A DNA stretch of 38,167 nucleotides from Bacteroidota bacterium (GTDB lineage: Bacteria; Bacteroidota; Bacteroidia; Chitinophagales; Chitinophagaceae), in the NCBI GenBank assembly GCA_025356235.1, contig JANXUL010000111.1:1-38167 (forward strand), in the 5' to 3' direction. A program made the position numbers and the translations under genes. Shown in pieces: positions 1-10,443 of the stretch (positions are counted from its first letter, which is position 1; every line of letters starts with the position of its first letter). The notes under the pieces were generated by a model, which saw only the letters and a list, made by a program, of their open reading frames with translations, did not search any database and was not told the origin of the DNA.

Positions 1-35
1 ATGTTACCAAGACCGACTATTAAAAATTTTGACAT
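1..35 (-). CDS. pth: Peptidyl-tRNA hydrolase, N-terminal fragment (runs off window)
   Basis: Minus strand from 35 reads ATG TCA AAA TTT TTA ATA GTC GGT CTT GGT AAC = MSKFLIVGLGN, matching the conserved Pth N-terminus (KFLIVGLGN). Confidence 0.75.
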   Translation of the reverse strand, partial: MSKFLIVGLGN

Positions 36-38
36 AAA

Positions 39-67
39 CGTGAGTGGTGAATCGTGAGTTACTGAGC
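39..67 (+). repeat. Left arm: heptad quasi-repeat GTGAGTG GTGAATC GTGAGTT (ACTGAGC)
   Basis: Positions 40-60 split into three GTGARTN heptads plus a degenerate fourth; 39-59 is an exact reverse complement of 509-529. Confidence 0.8.
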
Positions 68-69
68 TG

Positions 70-434
70 TCAGTTGTTGTTTTCGTAAACAATCATTTTG
101 CTAAGCATTTGAAAAGTTTTTACAACCAACAAACCCGTTTCATTCAATTCTTCTTTTTTTAAATATTCTAAAGCTACAGCTAAATCAAAAATAGTATCTA
201 CTTCAATTAATGACCCTCTCGATATTTCATAAAAACGCCTTCTTTCTACGGCAGATTTTCTTGAACTGCCTTCCGCAATATTGAGTTGTATTGATAACCC
301 TGCCGTTCTAAGCTGTTGAGCCATATTAAAACGTTCATCTGGCGGCAGTAATTTGGATATTTTAATGATGCCAATACAAGATTTCTTCCTGTAGCAAATA
401 CATCGAGTTTGGTGTGGGCCAGATTTAAAAACAT
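70..434 (-). pseudogene. Four helix bundle protein (23S rRNA intervening-sequence protein / S23 family), frameshifted
   Basis: Frame 1: MFLNLAHTKLDVFATGRNLVL...; frame 2: ...GIIKISKLLPPDERFNMAQQLRTAGLSIQLNIAEGSSRKSAVERRRFYEISRGSLIEVDTIFDLAVALEYLKKEELNE. Together these form the family sequence if one C is added near 371-372. The span is 365 nt (3n+2), consistent with a 1-nt deletion. Confidence 0.8.
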
Positions 435-500
435 ACAGTGGTTAATTTCAGAATGATAAATAAAGTACAACGGAAAGTTCATTCTTAAAATAAGGTCCTC

Positions 501-529
501 TACTCACTACTCACGATTCACCACTCACG
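501..529 (+). repeat. Right arm: four heptads TACTCAC TACTCAC GATTCAC CACTCAC
   Basis: 501-528 is four consecutive NAYTCAC heptamers; inverse of the left arm. Confidence 0.85.
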
Positions 530-740
530 ATCTCTTCTCCAACTTACTTATTTTCCTATCCAGGTTAAATACATATAAAAACAGTCCTAATAAAATCGTT
601 ACCACAACTGCCACCACTACATATATTTTTCCATTGCTGCGCATGGTATCAACAGGTTCCACTGCTGCTGATTGTGCCTGAACGGCAATACTTACCATGA
701 CCAGCACCAGCACACTGATGATTTTTTTTACTTTATTCAT
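525..740 (-). CDS. CcmD family protein
   Basis: 71 aa with signal peptide and single TM, ...GKIYVVVAVVVTILLGLFLYVFNLDRKISKLEKRS; overlaps the 3' end of ccmC. Confidence 0.8.
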   Translation of the reverse strand: MNKVKKIISVLVLVMVSIAVQAQSAAVEPVDTMRSNGKIYVVVAVVVTILLGLFLYVFNLDRKISKLEKRS

Positions 741-1416
741 TTGCCAGTTTTTTTTGGTGAATCATCCCTACCCTGATACGTAAAGTAGTTATCCAGACTG
801 CCAGTAATGTCCAGCCGATAAAAGCAGGATACATAACCGTTCTCATGGCATTGCTGGTATCTTTCGGGTTCAATCCTGGGTTGCCTTCGCTTCCCTGTCC
901 GCCCGGGTGAAGGCTTTCTGTCAATCTCGGCAGTATCCATATGGTAGGAAACAACATGAAGAAAGCGAAAATGTTATATACGGCTCCAATCCTTGCCTGT
1001 TTTTCTTCATCATGAAAACTGCCTTTCAAAACAAAATAAGCGAAATAAATAAGCAGTGCTATCGCTGTGCCATTTTGCTTGGCATCACCACTCCAAGGTT
1101 TACCCCATTGGTAATTGGCCCATATCATTCCGGTAATTAAACCCAATATCCCCAGGAAGGTTCCTGTTCTGGCAAATTCAGTTGAATAGATATCATCAAC
1201 AGGATTCAGGTTACGTAAATATTTTACAGCATATACCACCGAAACGGTAAAACATACCATCATAGCAATCCACATGGGTACATGAAAAAAAAGGTTCCGA
1301 ATGGTTTCTTTCAAAGGAACACCGGGCGGGGATGGCACTTCAACAAAGAAGCCGTATGAGCAGGTATATATCAGTAAAACAAAACTTAGTAACTTCCACC
1401 AGGATTGTCGAATCAT
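733..1416 (-). CDS. ccmC: Cytochrome c biogenesis protein CcmC/CcsA family
   Basis: Multi-TM protein with FHVPMWIAM and WANYQWGKPWSGDAKQNGTAI (haem-handling, tryptophan-rich WGxxWxxD-like motif). Confidence 0.9.
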   Translation of the reverse strand: MIRQSWWKLLSFVLLIYTCSYGFFVEVPSPPGVPLKETIRNLFFHVPMWIAMMVCFTVSVVYAVKYLRNLNPVDDIYSTEFARTGTFLGILGLITGMIWANYQWGKPWSGDAKQNGTAIALLIYFAYFVLKGSFHDEEKQARIGAVYNIFAFFMLFPTIWILPRLTESLHPGGQGSEGNPGLNPKDTSNAMRTVMYPAFIGWTLLAVWITTLRIRVGMIHQKKLANE

Positions 1417-1548
1417 GTTCTGATTTTTTCAGTCAAATTCTGTCGCACATCTCCAAACTAACAACTGTAAGGGCAAAAATAGGTGAAAGGCACGCAATAA
1501 TATCAATGATTGTGTAAAAATTACCTGTTAAAAACCCAATTTCAAAAT

Positions 1549-1584
1549 TGCGTAAACCTGTTTATCAATAAGCAGGTTTACGCA
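1549..1584. repeat. 12-bp-stem inverted repeat TGCGTAAACCTG ... CAGGTTTACGCA
   Basis: 1549-1560 pairs perfectly with 1573-1584 in the intergenic leader of the ABC ATPase gene. Confidence 0.8.
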
Positions 1585-1619
1585 CGTTAAATTCAAAAAA
1601 ATCTAAATTATATTTAACT

Positions 1620-3347
1620 ATGGCACTCCCCCTACTGCATATAAAAAACCTTTCTGTGGATTTTTATACTGATGGGGCCAGAACAAGCGCATTACGAAAT
1701 ATTGACATATCTATCCGTCGGGGCGAGATTTTTGCTATTGTGGGCGAGTCGGGCTCCGGAAAATCGGTTACTTCTTTATCCATTTTGCAATTATTACCAA
1801 CACCTCCGGCAGTTTATCGCTCAGGAGAGATATTATTAACAGTTGCTGATAAGACCATAGATATTTTAAAGGTTCCGCGCGAAAAACTGCAGTCTATCCG
1901 GGGCAACCAGGTAGCCATGATCTTTCAGGAACCGATGAGTTCATTAAACCCGGTTTTAACCTGTGGCTTTCAGGTAATGGAAGCCATCAGGCAACACAAT
2001 ACGATTGCACAAGCTGAAGCCAAAACCCGCACCATTGCTCTTTTTGAGAAAGTAAGGTTGCCCGATCCACCGGCGATGTTCCACAGGTATCCACACCAGT
2101 TAAGCGGCGGCCAGAAACAAAGGGTCATGATTGCCATGGCGATGAGTTGCGAACCCTCTTTATTAATCTGCGACGAACCGACTACTGCATTAGACGTAAC
2201 CGTGCAAAAAAATATCCTTCAACTGATCCGTGAGTTACAGGTACAAAACAATATGGGTGTAATTTTTATCACCCACGACCTCAGTGTAGTAGCCGAAATA
2301 GCCGATCGCGTAGCAGTCATGTATAAGGGCAGGATAGTGGAACAAAATTCTGCTAAACAAATATTTAATTATCCCCAGCACCCTTATACCAAAGCCCTGT
2401 TGGCCTGCCGGCCTTTGTTACACGAAAAAGGAGAAAGGTTACCGGTAGTGAGTGATTTTATGGAAGTGGATGGTAGAGGGGAGATTATTGAAAAGTTAGG
2501 CGTTACGGGGCTGGGGATTGGGGTTAATGCCACACAACATACACCCATACCAACCCGCACAATCTTAACTGTAGAAAATTTAAAAGTTTATTTTCCCACC
2601 AAAAAAACAATCCTGGGAAAAGTTACTGCTTACACAAAAGCCGTGGACAATGTAAGCTTCGATGTGTATGAAGGTGAAACACTCGGACTTGTTGGCGAAT
2701 CGGGTTGTGGGAAGAGTACATTAGGCAGGGCCATTCTCCGGTTGATTGAGCCAACTTCTGGCAGTATACATTACAAAGGGTTAGACCTTTTACACACGGC
2801 ACCAAAAACACTCAAATCCCTGCGAAAAGATGTACAGATCATTTTTCAGGATCCGTATTCTTCCTTAAACCCAAGGATGACAATTGGGGATGCGATAGCA
2901 GAACCTTTACAGGTGCATCGGTTATGCAAAACAAAAAAAGAGCGTAAAGATAAAGTGATAGCGTTACTGAAAAAAGTGAACCTCACTCCTGAACATTACC
3001 ATCGTTACCCCCACGAGTTAAGTGGTGGTCAGCGCCAACGGATTGTTATTGCACGGGCACTGGCTTTGCAACCTTCTTTTATTATTTGTGATGAAAGTGT
3101 TTCGGCACTTGATGTAAGTGTTCAGGCGCAGGTATTAAATTTATTGAACGATTTAAAAAAGGAATTTGGATTTACTGCGATTTTTATTTCGCATGACTTG
3201 TCGGTGGTCCGCTACATCAGCGACCGCATTATGGTGATGAACAAGGGCCGGATTGAAGAAATGGGCAGTTCAGAACAGGTATATAATCACCCGAAAACGG
3301 AGTATACCCGAAACCTGATTACTTCCATTCCGAAAGGTATTTTATAG
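1620..3347 (+). CDS. ABC transporter ATP-binding protein, fused DppD-DppF/YejF-type (two NBDs)
   Basis: Two Walker A ([16 protein letters not shown]), two signature ([16 protein letters not shown]) and two Walker B motifs; oligopeptide-type NBD features. Confidence 0.93.
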
Positions 3348-3384
3348 ATATATCCGCATAATAATCAACCTATTATGTGGCAAA

Positions 3385-3415
3385 TTGGCGTATTGCCTTC
3401 GTTACCTTACCTTTG
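3385..3415 (+). promoter_or_regulatory. Candidate Bacteroidota promoter (TTG / TAnnTTTG) for queA
   Basis: TTG at 3385-3387, 20 nt spacer, TACCTTTG at 3408-3415, upstream of queA. Confidence 0.5.
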
Positions 3416-3514
3416 CCGACTTCTGAAATTCATGCCGTAACATGAAGTTAGTACCTCCCGCCTATGGCGTGTATACAACTGAATGTGGCTATCATCTAAA
3501 ACAAGATTAGACAC

Positions 3515-4564
3515 ATGAAATTATCACAATTCAAGTTTGACCTTCCACTTAACCTGATTGCCCAGAACCCGACCAAAAGAAGGGAAGACAGCCGAATGAT
3601 GGTTGTTGACCGTAAGAGCGGGCATATGGAGAACAAACATTTCCGCGACATCTTAGAGTATTATGATGATAAGGATGTTTTTGTAGTAAACAACACAAAA
3701 GTATTTCCGGCAAGGATGTATGGCCGTAAAGAAAAGACCGGGGCCAAGATCGAAGTTTTCCTGCTTCGTGAATTGAATAAACCCAACCGTTTATGGGATG
3801 TAATTGTTGATCCCGCAAGAAAAATACGTGTGGGTAATAAATTATACTTTGGCGAAAATGAAGAATTGGTAGCTGAAGTAATTGACAATACCACCAGCCG
3901 TGGCCGTACCATTCGTTTTTTATGGGATGATGATGATGAAAGTTTTAAAAAAATGCTGGAACATTTAGGTGAAACACCTTTACCAAAATACATCAAGCGC
4001 AAGCCTGATGAAGAAGATAAAGAACGTTACCAGACAGTTTATGCCAAGCATGAAGGTGCCGTTGCTGCCCCTACTGCCGGTTTACACTTTAGTAAGGAAT
4101 TGATTAAGCGTTGTGAAATTCAGGGTATCCGTTTTGCAGAAGTTACCTTGCATACCGGCCTGGGTACCTTCCGCCCGATTGAAGTGGAAGACCTGAGTAA
4201 ACATAAGATGGATGCAGAATATTACGCGATTGACGAACAGGCCTGCAGCATCGTAAACAAAGCAAAAGAAACCGGCCACCGCATATGTTCTATCGGTACC
4301 ACAACCATGCGTGCCATGGAAAGTAGTTTCACCGCTCAAAAATTATTAAAACCAAGCGAAGGGTGGACCAATCACTTTATTCACCCGCCGTATAAATTTA
4401 ATGTGGCTGACAGCCTGGTTACCAATTTTCATTTGCCCAAGACGAGTTTACTCATCATGACCTGTGCATTTGCCGGTTATGACCTGGCTATGGAAGCTTA
4501 TAAAAAAGCCATTAAAGATAAATACCGTTTCTTCAGTTATGGAGATGCGTTGTTGATTGTTTAA
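3515..4564 (+). CDS. queA: tRNA preQ1(34) S-adenosylmethionine ribosyltransferase-isomerase QueA
   Basis: [33 protein letters not shown]..., [32 protein letters not shown] are QueA hallmarks. Confidence 0.96.
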
Positions 4565-4582
4565 TGAGCCATACCTATTTAT

Positions 4583-5851
4583 CTAAAGCCTCAACTTACC
4601 GGTTGGGGCTTTATTTTTTGGAGGCGGCCAATAGTCAAATGGTAACATGGAAGCTATTTTTTCCGACCACGCCCAATAGCCTGAGGAAATAAGGTCTATC
4701 CCCTGAAAATAACTTCCGTTCGCCAATACCACCAATGGTTTCCCGGAACTTAAAAAAATATCCGATGTGATCGGGCCTTTACTAACAGAACGTAAAGCCG
4801 ATCTTCCGTATTCATCAGGAAACATTTTAGCAGGGTACCGTACCTGTAAATGATCTGTAAATTCTAATCCGGCAGTAATAGTATCTATAGCATACGCAAT
4901 ACTATCGCCGGGTAAAATTTTATTGATCAATATACTCATCTCATCCGGTCGCTGTATTACTTTACGGTAATATGCCGCAGAATCTTCATTCTCCATACCC
5001 ATATTTTTAGTGATAACAAAAGTTTTTCTTTCTCCTACAGACTTAGCAAACTGGGATTGATAGATTGCCTTCACCCGCTTTTTCTCCGCTTCAGATAACA
5101 CGATTAGTTTTCTGATTTCAAAGCCTCCCTCGATCAACCTATTCCGGTAAACACAACGCATGAAATGCATCATTGATCCGAAATAAGCATCTTCTCTGTT
5201 GAACATCCATCGTTTTTTTAGGCCGCTACGCCCTGTTTCCATTTCTTCAAAGAGCGGGTAACCCTGGTAATAAAACATCTTGGTGGTAAAATTATATTCG
5301 AACTTTATGAGTTCGTATTTTATGATATAACCGAGTGCTTTATTTTCAATCACTAACCGGTCGTCTGCAAATGCTTTTAGTGTGTTTTGCTTTTTGTTAA
5401 ACCTAAATTTAACCATCCCGTGGTTCAGCAATTTACAATCGGTTGCAAATGCAGAACTGCCAATAAAGTTTTCTATGAAAAAAGACCCCCACTTATCCCA
5501 CCCATTTTTTTCATATGGCTCAACAGTCACTTCCTGTAATTCATTTATTTTAGGTTTTAAAACTACTTTCAGGTTAGCGGGTAAATGATTGGATTGCAGG
5601 GTAATGATATAGGTTTCATATCCAATAAAAGAAATAATCAGATCGAACCTGCCTTCGGGGAAATGGATAATACTAAACGCGCCATTATCATCCGAGATAG
5701 TTCCTACTGATGTATTACTTAAAAAAACGTTTGCTGAAACAACCGGTTGATGAGTATCAGAAGTAATGATGTTTCCTTTAAGCGTCTGCTGGCCGAAAGA
5801 AATCATCCCCGGGAATAAACCAATCACTAACACAAAAAAAAGTTTTGGCAT
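4583..5851 (-). CDS. Carboxypeptidase-regulatory-like (CarboxypepD_reg) domain protein, secreted
   Basis: Signal peptide then LKGNIITSDTHQPVVSANVFLSNTSVGTISDDNGAFSI, the typical Bacteroidota CarboxypepD_reg-like domain. Confidence 0.8.
   Translation of the reverse strand: MPKLFFVLVIGLFPGMISFGQQTLKGNIITSDTHQPVVSANVFLSNTSVGTISDDNGAFSIIHFPEGRFDLIISFIGYETYIITLQSNHLPANLKVVLKPKINELQEVTVEPYEKNGWDKWGSFFIENFIGSSAFATDCKLLNHGMVKFRFNKKQNTLKAFADDRLVIENKALGYIIKYELIKFEYNFTTKMFYYQGYPLFEEMETGRSGLKKRWMFNREDAYFGSMMHFMRCVYRNRLIEGGFEIRKLIVLSEAEKKRVKAIYQSQFAKSVGERKTFVITKNMGMENEDSAAYYRKVIQRPDEMSILINKILPGDSIAYAIDTITAGLEFTDHLQVRYPAKMFPDEYGRSALRSVSKGPITSDIFLSSGKPLVVLANGSYFQGIDLISSGYWAWSEKIASMLPFDYWPPPKNKAPTGKLRL
4585..4619 (+). 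terminator. Rho-independent terminator of queA
   Basis: AAAGCCTCAAC-TTACCG-GTTGGGGCTTT hairpin followed by ATTTTTT; lies inside the 3' end of the convergent CDS. Confidence 0.85.
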
Positions 5852-5893
5852 ACAGTATGGTTTCAGTTATGAAAGGTAAGGACTCCCTTTTCA

Positions 5894-5921
5894 AATAAAA
5901 ACCGCTGAAAAATTCAGCGGT
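5894..5921 (-). terminator. Rho-independent terminator of 5948-6394 gene
   Basis: Minus strand: ACCGCTGAA-TTT-TTCAGCGGT followed by TTTTATTT. Confidence 0.85.
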
Positions 5922-5947
5922 CAATAGGTTTATTCTTATCAAATCAT

Positions 5948-6394
5948 CTAATTAAAGATGTTTTCAGTATCTTCTTCCAGCACAAGATATTTTTTTCTGC
6001 CGATAGTCAGATAATACAGCATGTATACCAAAACAGGCACGAATGCCAGTACCTGGAACCACAGAAATTCAGGAGGTTTGGCTATATGTGCCACCTTCAT
6101 AATAAACCCTGATAATAAAACGATAATAAAAGCAATATAAACAATCGCATAATATTTCATTCCTGATTTTACTTTAAGGAATTTAGTTTCACCTTCATTG
6201 AGCTGAAGGCTTACTTCGCCGCTGCTGCACCAATCAATTTTGCATTGCATTTTATGGAACCCCGAGGCTATCACGAACTCCTCAGAACTTCCGTTTGTTA
6301 TTTTACCAAGTTCTACATCATCAATAAAAAATTTAATCCCACGGGCTTTGTTTACCCATTCACTTTTCCTGTTCAGAATAATTTTAGCACTCAT
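5948..6394 (-). CDS. Hypothetical membrane protein
   Basis: 148 aa ORF with two TM segments C-terminally, own terminator, same strand as lysC. Confidence 0.7.
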   Translation of the reverse strand: MSAKIILNRKSEWVNKARGIKFFIDDVELGKITNGSSEEFVIASGFHKMQCKIDWCSSGEVSLQLNEGETKFLKVKSGMKYYAIVYIAFIIVLLSGFIMKVAHIAKPPEFLWFQVLAFVPVLVYMLYYLTIGRKKYLVLEEDTENIFN

Positions 6395-6404
6395 GGTTTA
6401 ATTT

Positions 6405-7724
6405 TTATAACCCGAACAACCCTTTATTCAGCAATTGCAAAGTTTTTGTTTTATACGAACTTGGCACCAACAATGAAATATTATGCGGACTTCCGCCATA
6501 ACTAACCATGGTAACCGGTATTTCTTTGATTGATTCGAAAAGTTTCTGCAATACATCATCCGTTTGTGCTATCTCGTTTCCTACAATAGATACAATGGTT
6601 TGGTCTTTATCCACATCAACCGAACCGAATGGTTCCAGTTCTTTCACTATTTGTTTCAAAGACACATCAGTATCGATGGTTACCGATACGGCTACTTCAG
6701 AAGTAGTAATCATATCAATTGACGTATGATATTTTTCAAATACTTCAAACACTTTTCTTAAAAATCCATAGGCCAGTAACATCCGGCTACTTTTAATCTT
6801 GATGGCGATGATACCATCTTTTGCTGCCACCGCTTTCACACCTACACTCCCGGCTTCTTTGGTGATTACCGTACCCGCGGCTTCAGGCTGCATGGTATTC
6901 AGCAATTTAACAGGTACATTTTCCTGTTGCGCCGGCCAGATACAAGTAGGGTGAAGTATCTTGGCACCGAAGTAAGCCAGCTCAGCCGCTTCATCAAAAC
7001 TTAGTTGCTTAATGGCAATGGTTTTTTCAACAATACGCGGATCGTTGTTATGCATACCATCAATATCCGTCCATATTTCGCATACAGTTGCTTTAATAGC
7101 TGCGGCAATCAAAGAGGCGGTATAATCGCTTCCGCCACGTTTTAAATTATCTACTTCGCCTTTTGAATTGCGACAGATATATCCCTGTGTAACGAATAAT
7201 TTTTTCTGGCTGTTTTGTTGCAATAACTGGCTGAGTTTTATCTTGATACTTCCCAATTGTGGTTCTTCATTAGCATCAATGGTCATAAATTCCAATGCAG
7301 GTAACAGCATATGATCAATATCCTGTTCTTCAAGGTACACTGAAAAGAGTTTGGTGCTCATCAATTCACCCTGTGCAAGGATATCTTTATTCAGTGCCTC
7401 ACTAAAAGAAATACGGAGTATGATATTCAGGAATTCAAAATGCTCTGAAACAAGGTCATTTGCTTTTACCCTTGTAGCATTCTGTTTTACCAGATCAAGT
7501 ACAAAACTGCGGTAATGTTCTTCCAGTTTATTTATCTTTTGTTTGGCACCCTCACGATCGCCATTGGCTAAACATTTACTGATTTCTACCAATGCATTTG
7601 TCGTTCCGCTTAAAGCACTTAATACGACAATCGTTGGTTCACCGTCTTTCGTGATCAATTGTGATACCTGGTGCATACGTTCCGGCTTACCCACACTAGT
7701 GCCGCCAAACTTCATTACTTTCAT
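6405..7724 (-). CDS. lysC: Aspartate kinase
   Basis: MKVMKFGGTSVGKPERM, GGSDYTASLIAAA, EIWTDIDGMHNNDPRIV, C-terminal ACT region. Confidence 0.94.
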   Translation of the reverse strand: MKVMKFGGTSVGKPERMHQVSQLITKDGEPTIVVLSALSGTTNALVEISKCLANGDREGAKQKINKLEEHYRSFVLDLVKQNATRVKANDLVSEHFEFLNIILRISFSEALNKDILAQGELMSTKLFSVYLEEQDIDHMLLPALEFMTIDANEEPQLGSIKIKLSQLLQQNSQKKLFVTQGYICRNSKGEVDNLKRGGSDYTASLIAAAIKATVCEIWTDIDGMHNNDPRIVEKTIAIKQLSFDEAAELAYFGAKILHPTCIWPAQQENVPVKLLNTMQPEAAGTVITKEAGSVGVKAVAAKDGIIAIKIKSSRMLLAYGFLRKVFEVFEKYHTSIDMITTSEVAVSVTIDTDVSLKQIVKELEPFGSVDVDKDQTIVSIVGNEIAQTDDVLQKLFESIKEIPVTMVSYGGSPHNISLLVPSSYKTKTLQLLNKGLFGL

Positions 7725-7866
7725 GTGAAACCCCCTCCCCGATTTTTATTGATGAATTAATTGAATTGCAAATGTACAGTCTGGAACCAAATTACTTCAG
7801 AAGTATTTTATTAACGAATGTTAGCCTGACAGCGGATACCATTAACTTTATTACTATTTAAACGAC

Positions 7867-8679
7867 ATGACCATGATCAGATATTCAGTTTTTATACTTG
7901 CCTTTCTATTGAGTGGTTTACCCGTCATTAAAACCTATGCTCAACCAGATTCCAGCCATTATTATCGTGCTGCCGATGGTACAAATATTTATTATGAAGT
8001 GAAAGGGAAAGGCTATCCGGTTGTTTTGGTTCACGGATTTATTGTAAATGCAACTACCTGGAAGAAGTCGCCATTGTATCTTGATCTTTTGAAAAATGGT
8101 TACCAAGTAATCATCATGGACCTGCGTGGAAACGGAAAATCAGATAAACCACATACCCCACAGGCCTATGAAAACGATGCCCAGGCAAAAGATATTATGG
8201 GCATTGTTTCTGAATTAGGTATCAAAAAATATGATGCGATCGGTTACTCAAGGGGGTCGATCATCGCAGCGCGCTTATTGGTCTTGGATAAACGTGTGCA
8301 TAAAACCATACTTGGTGGAATGGGTGCTGAATTTACTAACCCTGAGTGGCCAAGACGTATTATGTTTTACCATGCATTAATGGGTGATAGTGTACCTGAA
8401 TTAAAAACAATGGTGCAAAATGTACAGAAATCCGGACTTGATCAGCTGGCCCTTGCCTATCAACAGAAAGAACAACCCGCTACTTCAAAAGAAGCCCTGC
8501 TCAAAGTAAAAAAAGATGTGCTTGTCATTTGTGGCGATCATGATAAAGACAATGGTTTGGGAACAGAACTAGCGGCCTTAATTCCCAAAGCAAAATTCAT
8601 AGAAGTTCCCGGCGACCATAACCATGCAGCATCTACCCAGGAATTTGCCAATGAAGCATTAGCTTTTATAAAGAAATAA
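7867..8679 (+). CDS. Alpha/beta hydrolase, secreted
   Basis: Signal peptide; VVLVHGFIVNATTW oxyanion motif, GYSRGS nucleophile elbow, GDHNHAAS catalytic His. Confidence 0.9.
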   Translation: MTMIRYSVFILAFLLSGLPVIKTYAQPDSSHYYRAADGTNIYYEVKGKGYPVVLVHGFIVNATTWKKSPLYLDLLKNGYQVIIMDLRGNGKSDKPHTPQAYENDAQAKDIMGIVSELGIKKYDAIGYSRGSIIAARLLVLDKRVHKTILGGMGAEFTNPEWPRRIMFYHALMGDSVPELKTMVQNVQKSGLDQLALAYQQKEQPATSKEALLKVKKDVLVICGDHDKDNGLGTELAALIPKAKFIEVPGDHNHAASTQEFANEALAFIKK

Positions 8680-9912: not shown

Positions 9913-10443
9913 TCAAATATCCATAACAGAAATAGGCGATCTTGTATTAGCACTGCTATACCACCAATGTTCGGGATCAGTCACTAATCCGGCTCTCACA
10001 GGATTAAAGTGGATATAGTTTTTTTTCTGTAATAGTATTTCAGCAGTAAAGCAATTAATTGGATGATTGGTCTTTTGCCAAAAAATATTCTCAGCATTTT
10101 GTTGTTGAAATTTGGCATTATATTGAAAAATAATTTTCATCCAGTCCCTCCTGCTTTCATAGGGGTTATTATAAATCATAGTCAAAAGTAGTTAGGCGGT
10201 ATAACTTTTAAAATCACGTAATAAGTAATTCAGTTTCCCATCTTTTTGTCCGGCCAACCAATGCATATGGTTACTCATAATTACGTAAGCATACAATTCC
10301 AGGCCTTTATGTTGTTGCCAGTATTGTATATTTTTTATAACCTCTTCACAATAATTCTTACACGTAAATGCATCTAGGCCACCAACTACTGTTAGGGTTA
10401 CAAAAAAAACAGCATCATAATTGGCTTTGCGTAGTTCACTCAT
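9913..10443 (-). pseudogene. REP-associated tyrosine transposase (RAYT / IS200-like Y1_Tnp), in-frame stop
   Basis: MSELRKANYDAVFFVTLTVVGGLDAFTCKNYCEEVIKNIQYWQQHKGLELYAYVIMSNHMHWLAGQKDGKLNYLLRDFKSYTA*LLLTMIYNNPYESRRDWMKIIF...HFNPVRAGLVTDPEHWWYSSA. HUH motif HMH present; TAA at 10194-10192 interrupts a single reading frame. Confidence 0.88.

Follow-up and report, generated by a model that had tools for sequence, protein, structure and literature searches.

At one end of the window, by which we mean the whole stretch of 38,167 nucleotides that was analysed, lies a compact unit of about half a kilobase in which a single gene on the minus strand is enclosed by two inverted arrays of seven-nucleotide repeats (Table 1). 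The window corresponds to contig C162, which begins at window base 1, in an assembly of 3.55 Mb and 317 contigs. The perfect 21-nt inverted repeat reported in a first-pass annotation of this DNA is indeed present: its two arms (39-59 and 509-529) show 100% complementarity and are separated by 449 nt, and the arm pattern has three matches in the 38 kb of the window (40-59 and two overlapping matches at 502-528), against 0.01 expected. In a profile search, the minus-strand ORF between the arms matched the S23/IVP family PF05635 with an E-value of 1.4e-18 and 67.5 bits (curated cut-off 33.8), and also TIGR02436 with 66.6 bits (cut-off 24); the protein is homologous to the solved structures 2gsc and 2rld. 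The family to which the sole gene of the unit had been attributed is therefore correct, but the gene is frameshifted rather than intact. In fact, the ORF at 70-324 starts at profile position 32 while the N-terminus (about 372-416) is found in a different frame, which together point to an indel near 365-375.

Table 1. Features of the window unit, the other S23 loci of the same genome, and filled and empty plasmid sites in cyanobacteria
Feature	Position	Strand	Details
Distal array (3' of S23)	39-60	+	Three GTGARTN heptads in opposite orientation to the proximal array; perfect 21-nt inverted repeat
Proximal array (5' of S23)	501-529	-	Four heptads, sense-strand unit NGTGAGT; fits the WNTNAGW pattern
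S23/IVP four-helix-bundle gene, middle and C-terminal part	70-390	-	Profile positions 16-103
S23 N-terminal part, other frame	372-482	-	Translation HTKLDVFATGRNLVL compared with the family alignment
ccmD, host gene beside the insertion	525-740	-	TGA stop (525-527) supplied by the element arm
pth-like start, stub	1-35	-	At contig end; putative flank
S23 locus L009			ATGAATT heptads on both sides; 29 nt, 90%
S23 locus L010			TTACGAA heptads on both sides; 28 nt, 93%
S23 locus L012			8-nt unit on both sides; 35 nt, 86%
S23 locus L013			Degenerate 15-nt pair
S23 locus L014			Truncated S23; array on one side
Site 1			Empty: four cyanobacterial plasmids reading ...AAAAAGTAATTAAC...; filled: Trichormus plasmid C (428 bp), Scytonema; GTAAT on both sides
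Site 5			Filled: Nostoc ATCC 53789, 418-bp unit, TTCTA flanks; empty: Nostoc C057 and C052 plasmids
Site 6			Filled: Nostoc MS1, 476-bp unit, TACTAAG flanks; empty: Trichormus plasmid A

The two flanks of the unit differ in the trust they deserve. On one side, the boundary falls in the stop region of ccmD, as had been proposed, since the final codons of this gene already belong to the unit and the termination codon lies within the arm. On the other side, the assignment of pth as the flanking gene did not survive: the contig ends after only 35 nt of a pth-like start, and the complete pth of the genome is located on another contig (C270) with a different 5' sequence, so that the distal flank is untrustworthy. 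The location of the gene outside any rRNA was borne out, no Rfam rRNA match being found in window positions 1-8000; likewise, Rfam gave no rRNA around 20 S23 loci. The same window carries an Rfam queA RNA at 3429-3492, directly upstream of the queA gene (3515-4564).

A search of the genome for the arm and for the full unit, as suggested in the first-pass annotation, recovered the arms repeatedly but no second full copy of the window unit. The 20-nt arm pattern, with 2 mismatches allowed, has 211 genomic matches, against 16 for the reversed pattern. The arms are tandem arrays of the 7-nt unit GTGARTN, dispersed throughout the genome and mostly forming solo hairpins; at the loci inspected, a plus array is followed by a minus array. 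In 317 kb surveyed, all of the 14 pairs of neighbouring arrays within 150 nt were convergent, and 3 of 42 arrays fell within ORFs, although ORFs cover 87% of this sequence; with the reversed pattern as control, 14 arrays were obtained, which means that some of the 42 are due to chance. PF05635 has six matches in this genome and the five other loci carry different or degenerate arrays. The unlike arrays at these loci (L009, L010, L012, L013 and L014) indicate that S23 genes within one genome carry different units.

The bracketing of S23 genes by inverted arrays extends well beyond this genome. Of the 150 genomes of the order that were searched, 128 contain PF05635, with 0 to 16 copies per genome; of 14 control genomes, none does. 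Across the order, 92 S23 genes were scored by the best inverted match between their 200-nt flanks: the median is 20, compared with 10 in control placements taken at the same loci, and scores of at least 18 are reached by 64% of the genes and by 0.2% of the 1,840 control placements (p 3e-49). At 78 loci from named GTDB species of many phyla the figures are 72% and 1.2%, respectively. With other real genes as a second control, 67% of 168 S23 genes are bracketed, compared with 4% of 398 other genes and 6% of 167 small genes; about a third of the S23 genes fell below the threshold, in a sample drawn partly from fragmentary genomes. Bracketed S23 genes span no fewer than 11 phyla or classes of Proteobacteria, among them Acidobacteriota, Bacillota, Desulfobacterota, Ignavibacteriota, Nitrospirota, Planctomycetota, Verrucomicrobiota and three groups of Proteobacteria, and plasmids of cyanobacteria and Azospirillum show the same arrangement. 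The period of the flanking repeats is mostly 7 and at times 8 or 9, and strict tandem-repeat counts underestimate the arrays because the units vary at one or two positions. Individual loci differ considerably in their layout. The S23 gene of a Planctomycetota MAG (L298) has unusually long inverted arrays of more than 140 nt with heptads of the GTGGACG type; three S23 genes lie within about 4 kb at L116 (genome G157), where both 7-nt and 9-nt array units are found; and at L138 (12337-13265, genome G185) two S23 genes of equal score stand in direct orientation, 614 bp apart, possibly as a tandem duplication of one element.

Although the units differ, they follow a common and strand-specific pattern: read on the sense strand of S23, the aligned units of 208 arrays fit W-N-T-N-A-G-W, with column frequencies of 0.89-0.94 for G, 0.74-0.80 for A and 0.62-0.67 for T. 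The information content of the alignment is 3.43, against at most 2.77 when the columns are permuted. Furthermore, distances between S23 proteins correlate with distances between heptad units (Mantel r 0.23, p 0.001), a value uncontrolled for host phylogeny.

The comparison of filled and empty sites indicates that S23 elements are mobile. Pairs of cyanobacterial plasmids with and without the element have flanks 89-97% identical, inserts of 418-476 bp and direct target duplications (sites 1, 5 and 6), and at all three sites the insertion lies at or beside the stop codon of the upstream gene, as at the ccmD of the window. Empty sites together with a target duplication, which are the criteria for a transposable element, were thus found for related elements at three cyanobacterial sites; the duplications (5, 5 and 7 bp) are known from these sites only and the window copy shows none, so that, lacking also a trusted distal flank, it is assigned to the class on its anatomy. 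At site 3 (Aulosira plasmid 2, L191) a 9-bp deletion takes the place of the duplication. The elements of sites 1, 3 and 5, which are three different plasmid sites, are 78-82% identical to one another. At site 2, whose flanks are not clean, S23 is present in two plasmids, a third has the inverted arrays alone, and two more are empty. A further candidate for a clean empty site, in the cas6-cas4 interval of Anabaena 90 (site 4), was rejected because the relative carries another insert. On a Nostoc C052 plasmid (L190), the site 1 locus holds a decayed copy with an internally deleted S23 and only the 5' array remaining.

Relatives of the window's genome agree with this picture. No S23 follows ccmD in the 10 same-genus relatives in which the 3' side of this gene was read: the element is absent, their ccmD ends in ...LEKK with a TAA stop, and a Glu dehydrogenase gene comes next. 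This gene gave no match in the window's genome, in a search without a positive control there. The situation named beforehand as the contrary case, in which all of the relatives would share the unit at one locus and no other copies would exist, was checked and is not what is observed. The proposal of a small mobile unit with arms able to pair across its transcript is supported, mostly by evidence from elsewhere, and, judged from sequence, the window unit is a worn and decayed copy of a tiny, widespread bacterial mobile element in which S23 is the only gene.

S23 genes are maintained by strong purifying selection, with a median dN/dS of 0.08 over 27 pairs, and the value is 0.078 between L179 and L191, two copies at different sites. 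In co-directional gene contexts S23 is in sense in 133 cases and antisense in 7 (p 3e-31), against a same-strand neighbour baseline of about 78%; the ORF calls behind these counts are mechanical and the result is robust to the ORF threshold. This bias may stem from selection on expression instead of from the insertion mechanism. The distance from the upstream stop codon to the start of the S23 model has a median of 80 nt, and in the predicted folds of the transcripts of three elements the arms pair, with z values of -3.3, -3.2 and -2.7.

Taken together, these data make it likely that the S23 unit represents a class of promoterless mobile elements that hitchhike on operons, of which the window copy is a decayed member and the rRNA intervening sequences (IVSs) one niche. 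Such elements are compact (about 0.4-0.5 kb), with S23/IVP as the sole gene between inverted tandem arrays of a 7-nt (sometimes 8-9-nt) unit, and are usually inserted directly after the stop codon of a host gene, in the direction of the operon. Presumably having no promoter of their own, they would be expressed from the host operon, and their arms, by analogy with rRNA IVSs, would pair in the transcript to give a long stem that RNase III could cut, which would free the S23 message and limit the harm to that of the host. The S23 protein, as an Avd-like pentamer, would bind the heptads through the T-N-A-G core, and catalysis of insertion might be provided by another protein or by an unrecognised activity of S23 itself. 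The rRNA IVS would then be the same kind of element placed in an rRNA loop. A stronger version, which we put forward tentatively, holds that these elements form a distinct class of mobile DNA in which S23, perhaps with host replication or repair enzymes, directs insertion at gene ends by recognising the inverted T-N-A-G arrays, and that the rRNA IVSs and many heptanucleotide repeats are their offspring.

Several other explanations were weighed against that of an operon-hitchhiking element. The heptad hairpins, abundant in the window's genome, could be independent repeats between two of which S23 lies by chance, and repeats of this length have been described from cyanobacteria, Beggiatoaceae and Bacteroidetes (PMC4679880); however, such a passive cassette is very improbable given the excess of bracketing over other genes (67% vs 4%) and the unlike units carried by the S23 genes of one genome. 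Moreover, the only three array pairs separated by 200-1500 nt in 717 kb from two genomes belong to a single S23 contig, two of these pairs share an array of that contig's S23, and arrays and gene are jointly absent at the empty sites and arrive together at sites 1, 5 and 6. These empty sites and target duplications, with different sites occupied in relatives and 0-16 copies per genome, leave hardly any credit to the view of S23 as a conventional small gene that is inherited vertically and carries a regulatory hairpin, with which the purifying selection on S23 would otherwise agree. A phage origin and a defence system were rejected, as S23 is found in none of 50,697 phage records and PADLOC gave no match.

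The means of movement allow more than one answer. The element could be non-autonomous, with S23 as helper or cargo, and depend on a resident transposase acting in trans, either DDE or Y1/HUH of the IS200 or RAYT kind. This is possible but rather unlikely: in the order, 116 of 150 genomes have a Y1 transposase, the hairpin ends are similar to those of REP/RAYT and target duplications of 5-7 bp are compatible with staggered cutting of DNA, but the arrays show no association with any single transposase family and Y1 enzymes are not known to make target duplications. Y1 in trans as a general requirement is unsupported, several S23-bearing genomes being without it (e.g., G039 with six S23 genes), and the window's genome has only a sub-cut-off fragment. 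This fragment, at 10171-10347 on the minus strand of the window, is a weak and broken match to PF01797 (21.5 bits, with an internal stop) and the sole trace of the family in the genome. It is improbable, in turn, that insertion proceeds by reverse transcription of an excised S23 RNA, with S23 in the role that Avd has in diversity-generating retroelements (DGRs), although S23 is related to Avd and both the sense orientation in operons and the place after stop codons would suit a step at the RNA level. RVT_1 is absent from the window's genome and from G157 and G134, which have 13 and 16 S23 genes, and its occurrence in 56 of 150 genomes, against 128 with S23, leaves a reverse transcriptase in trans unsupported as a general requirement.

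Among known systems, the proposed operon-hitchhiking S23 element invites comparison with the rRNA IVS, which RNase III excises without ligation. In Coxiella burnetii, the IVS in helix 45 contains an S23 ORF with tandem GACAGAT heptamers ahead of it, has a 28-bp stem and is excised by RNase III, and the S23 protein of Xanthomonas forms a pentameric ring (PMC4990558). Like this IVS, the elements described here have S23 as the sole gene, a length of about 430 nt, sense orientation in the host transcript, terminal inverted repeats forming a stem (here in predicted folds) and tandem heptamers before the ORF; unlike it, they sit between protein genes, vary in array unit, and show empty sites with 5-7 bp duplications as well as dispersed solo inverted arrays. 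The relationship of S23 to Avd has been described (PMC10053308) and both are homologous four-helix-bundle proteins: S23 matched the PHROG Avd profile with an E-value of 8e-12 and NCBIfam DivGenRetAVD with E-values of 5e-8 to 3e-4, although at 21-33 bits the homologs stay below the Avd family cut-off of 80. With REP/REPIN-RAYT systems and MITEs the elements share short inverted repeats in intergenic sites and, presumably, autonomous and non-autonomous forms; they differ in that the arms are 7-nt tandem arrays, the coding gene is S23 and, unlike in IS200/IS605 or REP-RAYT, no Y1 transposase lies in the element or is intact in the window's genome. The solo arrays would fit a MITE, although no parent transposase was recognised; the form with S23 is coding. 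Finally, heptanucleotide repeats, such as the STRR of cyanobacteria, are likewise tandem, intergenic and often beside gene starts or ends, but no link between them and S23 or inverted pairs is known; arrays inverted around S23, as found here, are a possible source of them. The TAACTGA heptads of Beggiatoaceae were described without a mobile element (PMC4679880), and no paper connecting S23 genes located outside rRNA to heptad arrays or to mobility was found in a search that covered neither preprints nor most subscription journals.

S23/IVP, a family of unknown function met mostly in rRNA IVSs whose origin has been debated for decades, would in this way gain a genomic role, that of the coding gene in a mobile element bounded by heptad arrays, together with a usual home (after stop codons, in sense in operons) and a candidate binding motif. 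The data suggest that the rRNA IVS, long a puzzle, belongs to a much larger family whose members also reside within ordinary operons and may be a source of the heptanucleotide repeats dispersed in cyanobacteria, Bacteroidota and other bacteria. The S23 element would rank among the smallest gene-bearing mobile elements, and the filled and empty pairs could be used to catch it moving. A simpler reading is also offered for the S23 genes in cas loci, formerly considered as possible CRISPR parts (PMC3936711): those between cas6 and cas4 in type I-D CRISPR loci of Anabaena 90 (L178) and Pseudanabaena plasmids (L182) are probably insertions. Both genes have heptad arrays on either side, and the inverted match is clear in L178 only.
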